Positions 33,454 through 34,743 of a DNA stretch of 64,000 nt are shown here, piece by piece; positions within the stretch are counted from its first letter, which is position 1; the number at the start of each line of letters is the position of its first letter. The notes beneath the pieces are model-generated. The model was not told where the DNA came from, did not search any database, and saw only the letters and a program-made list of their open reading frames with translations. Position numbers and translations under genes: made by a program. The stretch comes from Isoetes taiwanensis (taxonomy: Eukaryota; Streptophyta; Lycopodiopsida; Isoetales; Isoetaceae). Location of the stretch: NCBI GenBank assembly GCA_021234155.1, contig JAJEKV010000040.1, positions 12,481,072 to 12,545,071 on the forward strand. Direction: 5' to 3'.

Positions 33454-34743
33454 TCATGGTCGTTCCCCACGGATCCGGCGTGCTAACTGAAGGTCCTTGG
33501 TCATGATCGTCACTCGCTTGGCATGGATTGCACATAGGTTTGCATCGCCAAAGAGGGCCACCAAATAGGCCTCGGCTGCCTCCTGGAGTGCTAGAATGGC
33601 ATGAGTCTGAAACCGGAGATCCGTTTTAAATTCCTGAGCAATCTCTCGGACCAGCCACTGGAAAGGAAGTTTCCGTAGCAAAAACTCGGTGGATTTCTGG
33701 TACTTCCTTATTTCCCTAAGTGCCACGGTGCCAGACTTGTAACGATGCCTCCTCTTAGGCTGGGGTGGAGCTCCAGGAATAGTTTTCCCTGCTGTTCTTG
33801 GATACCGGGCCTTTCGGATGATCTCATCTCGTCGGTTGTCCTCTGCAGCCTTTGCGACACTACCCCGAGCCTTAAGCTGATCTTTGTACTGAGCACCCGA
33901 TTTACGGGGCGTCTTCTTCAGTTTTCGGCGAGGAACGCGAACTTCCGGAGGTGGCTGATCTTTCCGGTGCCTTTCTTCCTCTTCTTTTCTCAACCGCTCC
34001 TTTACTGCTTCTGTTGCTTCTCTCGCCCTCTGCTCTGCTTCATCCTGCATTCTCTTCAGGGCTTGCTCCTGTTCTACTTGCTGTTGATGGACAATATCCT
34101 CCCGAAGCTTAGCAGCCTCCTCTGTCAATTGCGTTGCCCTCTGAGACTGTGCCAGGAGTGCGGCTTGCTCCTCTGCTCGCTTTTCCCTGGCTATCCGGAT
34201 ATCCGTTCTTCGTTTAAGTTCCAGGAAGTAGCGTGGAGGGTTAGCCTGCATGTCCCGCTCGACAGCCCGCTGGAATTGGTCCGTGAAGAATGGGGGTGTT
34301 CCAGCTTCCCAGATAATACGGTTAGTCTCCTCTTCATATGAAAAAGTTGGGAGGGTGTATGCCCCCCCATCAAATAGGCACATCCCATTTCCAAGGTAAC
34401 GATACCCTGAAGCTGGGTCATCAGATGCAAGCCACTGTAGGTCCGCTTCCTGGGCCATTTGCAGGCTATTTTGGGCCTGTGTTTGTAGGGCCTCGGCTTC
34501 AGCTTGTTCGTCCCCTCCTGGCGGAAAGAACCGCGTATACTTCTGGACACCATCTTCCTGTTCAACTACGATGCAGGTTTCCCGGATGGCGTTGAGCTTG
34601 AATACAAAGCGCTCGTTGTAGCAAAAGAGCGGGAATGGTATTCTAATTCCTTCATAGAAGCGTTTGACAAAGTACTCCAGTAGCTCCTCTGTTTTGGCCT
34701 CTTCTTCAGGCGATGGGTTTGGGCGTGGCAGTAATTGGGCCAT
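33454..34743 (-). CDS. Accessory ORF 1: histone H3 fold fused to coiled-coil protein
   Basis: An uninterrupted 429-codon ORF; ATG at 34743 follows an acceptor-like CAAATCCCTATAG by eight bases. Residues 1-175 form an unrecognised N-terminal region ([39 protein letters not shown]). Residues about 180-260 are a highly charged coiled coil ([26 protein letters not shown]). Residues 265-329 are basic ([13 protein letters not shown]). Residues 330-429 (genomic 33756-33457) are a complete H3 core: [65 protein letters not shown]. It follows canonical H3 rather than CENH3. Changes include Trp for Arg83, Gly for the Glu in LFEDTN and Thr for Pro in IMPKD. The frame lies between the primer site and gag of the chromovirus, on its coding strand. 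Known H3 is about 136 residues, so this is a fusion. Role is inferred only: nucleosome binding or packaging. Confidence 0.93.

Follow-up and report, generated by a model that had tools for sequence, protein, structure and literature searches.

The window analysed here, a stretch of 64,000 nucleotides from the genome of Isoetes taiwanensis, contains a gypsy element on the minus strand, running from 37427 to 18158, in which three extra open reading frames (ORF1-H3, hereafter ORF1, ORF2 and ORF3) are encoded between the primer site and gag (Table 1). The element displays the characteristics of a Ty3/gypsy chromovirus, i.e., TG...CA LTRs, a 5-bp target duplication, PR-RT-RNaseH-IN order, and a chromodomain at the C-terminus of the integrase. 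In a related copy, near 57370, of the element that hosts the insertion, the target site is present once. The primer site of the window element (TGGTATCAGAGC) is presumably of the initiator tRNA-Met type.

Table 1. Features of the H3-bearing chromovirus in the window, given in the 5' to 3' direction of the element.
Feature	Position	Strand	Remarks
Target-site duplication, 5' side	37428..37432		TCAAC (minus-strand reading); repeated at 18153-18157
5' LTR	35419..37427	-	2.0 kb; TGTGACG...GCGTCACA ends; internal tandem duplication of ~390 bp
Primer binding site	35400..35417	-	TGGTATCAGAGCATGGTT; starts at 35417
Leader	34744..35399	-	656 nt
ORF1-H3	33454..34743	-	429 aa + stop; ORF scan, Pfam, genome copies, dN/dS
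ORF1, N-terminal acidic domain	34240..34743	-	aa 1-168; orphan
ORF1, long helix / coiled-coil-like segment	33964..34239	-	aa 169-260
ORF1, basic linker	33748..33963	-	aa 261-332; includes an H3-tail-like KSG motif
ORF1, histone H3 core	33457..33747	-	aa 333-429; alpha-N helix + histone fold
ORF2	31797..33206	-	469 aa from first ATG, 494 aa from upstream GTG; orphan
ORF3	31095..31424	-	109 aa from ATG; open frame longer in several siblings
gag, capsid part	30057..30873	-	Pfam; cut by the rearranged stretch
Rearranged stretch	24277..30056		made up of LTR-like pieces from this element family, part of them inverted; interrupts gag
Remainder of gag, zinc knuckle (weak match), protease	23340..24276	-	Pfam
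Reverse transcriptase	22359..23102	-	PF00078, 1.3e-38
RNase H + integrase	20990..22396	-	Pfam
Integrase C-terminus with chromodomain	20254..20976	-	PF00385, 2.3e-08
Polypurine tract	19761..19773	-	AAGGAGGGGGGAA; adjoins the 3' LTR; sibling tracts compared
3' LTR	18158..19760	-	1.6 kb
Target-site duplication, 3' side	18153..18157		TCAAC

The LTRs, the TCAAC duplication and the Pfam matches confirm that ORF1 lies between the primer site and gag of an LTR element, on its coding strand, as the preliminary description had proposed. That description recognised ORF1 as an extra frame within the element, and ORF2 and ORF3, which were absent from it, have to be added; likewise, pol was called broken and does shift frame, and gag is also split by the rearranged stretch of ~5.8 kb. 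One piece of this stretch (24277-26463) includes 272 bp that match the sequence flanking the element on its left (17886-18157), a possible sign of rearrangement or of an assembly error. When judged by eye against HP1, the first and third cage aromatics of the integrase chromodomain seem to be missing. Chromodomains that lack these aromatics make up group II, and a plant factor bound by group II chromodomains was not found in a study cited by the same paper, according to its accessible text (PMC3350952). The earlier statement that the integrase chromodomain reads H3 is doubtful in view of the two of three cage aromatics that appear to be missing.

ORF1 was recovered at exactly the coordinates first given for an open frame of 429 codons, and its strand, which had been left unnamed, is minus. 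The full H3 core that had been read at the end of the frame is borne out by a Pfam Histone match (PF00125) over residues 324-425 with an E-value of 1.2e-39, and the best sequence match of the window ORF1 in the PDB is histone H3.3 (8.4e-50). The 97 residues of the core (333-429) align gap-free with canonical H3, and 80 of them are identical to a typed Arabidopsis-type H3.1 and 84 to the host's own H3.3; over three element copies compared, identity to host H3 is 83-86/97. ORF1 carries one histone stretch (324-425), not the two folds of a doublet, and partial tail-like motifs in place of a canonical N-terminal tail with K4/K9/K14/K27. CENH3/CENP-A, which has a lengthened loop 1, was considered and rejected, as the core shows no gaps against canonical H3 and, in a tree built without CENH3, falls together with plant H3.

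Upstream of the core, the N-terminal domain had no relative at E <= 1 in a collection of 5.8 billion proteins. AlphaFold, applied to ORF1 alone, predicted a single 92-residue helix at residues 169-260 (pLDDT about 81-90 up to residue 250, then 66), a model that fits the coiled coil named in the preliminary description; the prediction was weak elsewhere, with pLDDT of 38-52 in the H3 part and mixed values of 34-84 in the N-domain. The linker (263-332) and the H3 core are both basic, with pI values of 11.6 and 10.2, respectively.

To what extent the histone residues are kept was assessed in 38 element sequences, i.e., 28 copies of family 1, nine of family 2 and one of family 3. Among 23 core residues inspected, which we take to be H4-pairing, H3-H3' and DNA-contact positions, 15 are identical in all 38 sequences, and the remaining eight deviate in one or two sequences each, one of the deviations being a stop and one a gap. 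The largely kept core residues, together with the selection described below, are most simply explained by an H3 fold that still works. The host H3.3 residues are Thr31 and His87; position 31 of the element protein falls in the linker, where the alignment is of low confidence, and position 87 is His in 28/28 family-1 copies and Phe in 9/9 family-2 copies and the one family-3 copy. Positions 89, 102, 105, 107 and 124 are changed in most copies of all three families, and because of these changes and of Phe87 in families 2 and 3, handling by chaperones could differ from that of host H3. H3 position 69 is occupied by R in 26 of 28 family-1 copies and by W in the window copy itself.

The copies were counted in one genome, that of I. 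taiwanensis, and all counts are lower bounds. With the window ORF1 as query at least 98 loci were found, with a family-2 ORF at least 101, and with an H3 query at least 135 non-host loci; the merged union comprises at least 285 loci, of which 199 come from whole-ORF1 queries and 86 rest on H3 similarity alone. The H3 ORF is hence not confined to the window copy, the point on which the preliminary description had made its reading depend, and ORF1 is a gene of the element rather than a chance host insertion. The whole architecture was present in nine of ten fetched H3-query loci and is common to families 2 (eight ORFs) and 3 (one ORF), whose ORF1 proteins are 43-47% identical to that of the window (eight of the nine aligned). 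In the tenth fetched locus (L061, G000:C1077:2561900-2562400), an open frame of 144 aa joins an element-type H3 core to an unrelated front part; this is either a truncated copy or a rearranged gene.

In all ten siblings, which were picked for having ORF1, this ORF is followed by ORF2, ORF3 and gag; in some of them, inserts or frame breaks intervene. One sibling (C908) spans ~13.3 kb with the gene order of the window element and a GTAGC target duplication on both sides, and another (C928) gave no pol match within the stretch fetched. LTR pairs were detected in five of the ten, and over five copies the K80 between paired LTRs was 0.053-0.121, which indicates that the copies are not very young. 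The window copy has a K80 of 0.098, so the open frame of its ORF1 is no sign of youth, and the recent activity that had been suggested for it is not borne out. With the family-2 query, the matched stretch was free of stops in 69 of the 101 matches listed, a proportion to be read in light of the fact that a similarity search with an intact query favours open frames.

The other part of that suggestion, that the frame is kept by selection, was upheld by dN/dS over sibling copies. NG86 ratios by region of ORF1, calculated for 25 of 33 aligned copies after eight diverged ones (L041-L048) had been dropped, were 0.041 for the H3 core, 0.099 for the N-domain, 0.197 for the coil and 0.270 for the linker. 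The H3 core is under strong purifying selection. By gene, the ratios were 0.126 for ORF1, 0.175 for ORF2 and 0.082 for ORF3 (11 copies), and 0.320 for gag, 0.155 for the protease part, 0.054 for RT, 0.272 for RNase H-integrase and 0.413 for the integrase C-terminus (8-10 copies), some of the pol ratios being raised by frame-broken copies in those arrays. Since decay after insertion inflates all of these ratios, active lineages are probably more strongly constrained. Taken together, the at least 285 loci and the low ratio of the H3 core agree with the earlier proposal that a chromovirus captured a host H3 and kept it as a gene of its own.

Regarding the origin of the captured gene, all 21 element rows fall in one clade among plant H3s in a tree of 97 core columns (support 100/98), a tree whose bootstrap is unsettled and that leaves 16 of its 26 inner branches open. 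Glu77 is shared by all host H3 copies read (three) and 23/28 family-1 copies, and the eight non-Isoetes H3s compared have Asp; the shared residue fits a capture within the Isoetes plant lineage. An H3.3 origin is suggested by one residue, the His87 of family 1. Between families, the silent sites of H3 are saturated (pS 0.82-0.87) and pN is 0.094-0.096. Fourfold sites differ by 68-83% between element and host H3 (five pairs). As 65% of these sites also differ between the two host H3s compared, this marks the divergence as old without giving it a date. Among the host H3 copies read (L049-L051), the two types compared, H3.1 and H3.3 (L049, L051), are told apart by positions 31 and 87 only, and at least 15 host-type H3 copies at 96-98% identity were found, each in one frame.

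ORF2 is an orphan at the search sensitivity used and AlphaFold gave no usable model of it (pLDDT 31); a Pfam scan of ORF3, a small protein conserved across families, returned nothing above the cut-off. An H3 ORF lies upstream at 56 of 91 ORF2 loci among the matches listed. Of five other ORF2 loci fetched, three carry ORF1, and in two (L064 and L067), which may be dead copies, it is absent from the stretch read; in L067 the LTR and leader are joined to the ORF2 spacer.

How ORF1 and ORF2 relate to the remainder of the element was examined in one family-2 element (L062), in which ORF1 is again followed by ORF2, ORF3 and gag, RT is missing and the integrase C-terminus contains stops. Its DNA shares 80% identity with that of C908 over ORF3-protease (2.5 kb) and 82% from the integrase in the 3' direction, with 82-87% for the LTR. 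In ORF1-ORF2, by contrast, the matches listed to C908 include none longer than 150 bp, and the only one listed to the window DNA is 275 bp of H3 at 74%. Protein identities follow the same division, with 44% for ORF1 and 45% for ORF2 relative to the window, and 82% for ORF3, 81% for gag, 82% for the protease part and 88% for the integrase piece. Furthermore, dS is 0.55-1.10 for gag and protease, takes middle values for ORF3 (0.9-1.8) and reaches saturation over the greater part of ORF1 and ORF2; for the integrase, comparison with C1047 gave high values (2.1 and 1.5). Because the pair is far more diverged than the flanking DNA, ORF1 and ORF2 appear to travel together and to be exchanged between backbones, and the partner of ORF1 is more likely to be ORF2 together with host chromatin than gag.

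No histone-encoding transposon was among the results listed by literature searches, and the word 'histone' is absent from the accessible part of the I. taiwanensis genome paper (PMC8566536). A screen of 121 angiosperm genomes, with lycophytes outside its scope, described 15 unusual domains in gypsy elements, and the section of that paper devoted to them names no histone domain (PMC9289625). It does describe Phalaenopsis gypsy elements with a 2-ODD m6A demethylase domain, which resemble the Isoetes element in that a host-derived domain sits in an extra ORF and is present in many copies; the captured domain of the Isoetes element, in contrast, is a core histone. Judged by these searches, the capture of a host domain by a gypsy element is known in kind, and a core histone in that role appears to be new.

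Viral histones offer further parallels. The accessible text of PMC9145170, in which the word 'retrotransposon' does not occur, lists single H3s from a xenomavirus, the Dishui Lake phycodnavirus and a sylvanvirus, and also a bracovirus H4. Like ORF1, these H3s have a host-like fold (73-87% identity for six) and an N-terminal tail that is in part changed or lengthened; they are thought to enter host nucleosomes, and some also have Ile for host Val in the chaperone-recognition stretch (PMC9145170). Their carriers are DNA viruses or virus-derived particles, whereas ORF1 is carried by a retrotransposon. The part of ORF1 that precedes the core also sets it apart: it measures ~330 aa and comprises an orphan domain and a long helix. 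The H3s of two phycodnavirus MAGs have orphan extensions of ~170 residues (PMC9145170). The bracovirus H4 provides a working analogue, since it has a lengthened tail, enters host nucleosomes and alters gene expression (PMC9145170). The histone doublets of marseilleviruses are likewise non-cellular histones (PMC9145170); they are divergent, whereas ORF1 has one H3 fold that is close to host H3.

The reading that we prefer, with a probability of roughly 55%, is that the capture of a host H3 by Isoetes chromoviruses is ancient, that the gene has since been retained as ORF1, that its core enters nucleosomes, and that its job is regulatory. A lineage of Isoetes gypsy chromoviruses would have taken in a host H3 gene, which now stands as a gene of its own ahead of gag and behind the primer site; its H3 core would still pair with host H4, host H3-H4 chaperones would handle the protein (family 1 having the His87 of host H3.3), and ORF1 would be built into host nucleosomes. 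Such incorporation would display the N-terminal domain on chromatin in place of the H3 tail, and since ~330 residues replace the normal tail, these nucleosomes would be without the usual K4/K9/K27 tail. With less certainty, ORF1 may keep the chromatin of the element open to expression, both by dilution of the H3 tail that can be methylated and by recruitment of ORF2 or other factors, a regulatory job rather than a structural one in the particle; from the divergence of the ORF1-ORF2 pair, our guess is a role in regulating chromatin rather than one in the particle. As to purpose, anti-silencing is our leading guess. A working analogy is offered by the VANCs of VANDAL transposons, sequence-specific anti-silencing proteins (PMC10398659), in that an element-encoded protein opposes silencing, a function that for ORF1 is a guess; the opening of that paper's abstract, in contrast to what is seen in ORF1, mentions no histone in VANCs. 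More tentatively, and at somewhat less than even odds, ORF1 may be a very old transposon-encoded H3 variant of host nucleosomes and ORF1-ORF2 a chromatin-control cassette exchangeable between backbones.

Alternatively, ORF1 could tether the particle or pre-integration complex to chromatin, with the N-domain and coil holding gag or integrase and guiding integration or nuclear entry. A nucleosome-embedded handle encoded beside gag would suit this purpose, the integrase has a chromodomain, and the H3 core is under selection. We nevertheless regard a tether as unlikely, because the ORF1-ORF2 of L062 is far more diverged than the DNA of gag, protease and integrase, which is unexpected for a tight partner of gag or integrase, and because the chromodomain seems, by eye, to lack cage aromatics (cf. 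PMC3350952).

It is quite improbable that ORF1 is a decoy that weakens heterochromatin by occupying H3-H4 chaperones or competing for H4, as this would leave both the conserved N-domain (dN/dS 0.099) and the linkage to ORF2 unexplained. In its favour, the H3 residues taken to be H4-pairing are largely kept. Residue 87, which lies in the chaperone-recognition stretch (PMC9145170), also matches host H3.3 in all 28 family-1 copies, in line with a decoy of chaperones.

Packaging of element cDNA or RNA in the particle, with ORF1 as a basic nucleic-acid binder, would agree with the high pI of the linker and core. We consider it very improbable: mere basicity would not require conserved H3-type residues, and the element ORFs scanned gave no sign of a second histone. 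Moreover, the cDNA is made in a retroelement particle in which neither H4 nor H2A-H2B is known to occur. Some giant-virus histones are nonetheless thought to pack viral DNA (PMC9145170). Lastly, that the H3 segment is a chance transduplicate, the passive cargo of an abundant element, has a negligible probability and is already refuted as far as sequence can do so, for although plant retroelements are known to carry host fragments and L067 still has its LTR and ORF2 without ORF1, the H3 core has a dN/dS of 0.041, H3 is kept in three families despite saturated silent sites, and 77% of H3-core differences are at third codon positions (21 copies).

Should ORF1 indeed enter nucleosomes, a selfish element would act on host chromatin by entering its basic unit directly, rather than through host enzymes that it recruits or blocks. 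Part of quillwort chromatin might then consist of a transposon-encoded histone, and chromosome packaging may be open to takeover by a genetic parasite. The element would also be a testable case of transposon escape from H3-based silencing, and ORF1 a natural histone fusion for locating where such a histone is deposited. Retrotransposons would join the carriers of core histones, which the accessible text of PMC9145170 describes as cells and DNA viruses. The ORF1-ORF2 cassette, in addition, offers two orphan proteins for study.

Outside the H3 element, inverted copies of another repeat family, 78-83% similar, lie beside it in the window at 37530-40601 and 52545-56812. Two ORFs at 48568-50952 (+) perhaps belong to a different element, and the second of them matches Pfam DUF7869 (2.1e-19).
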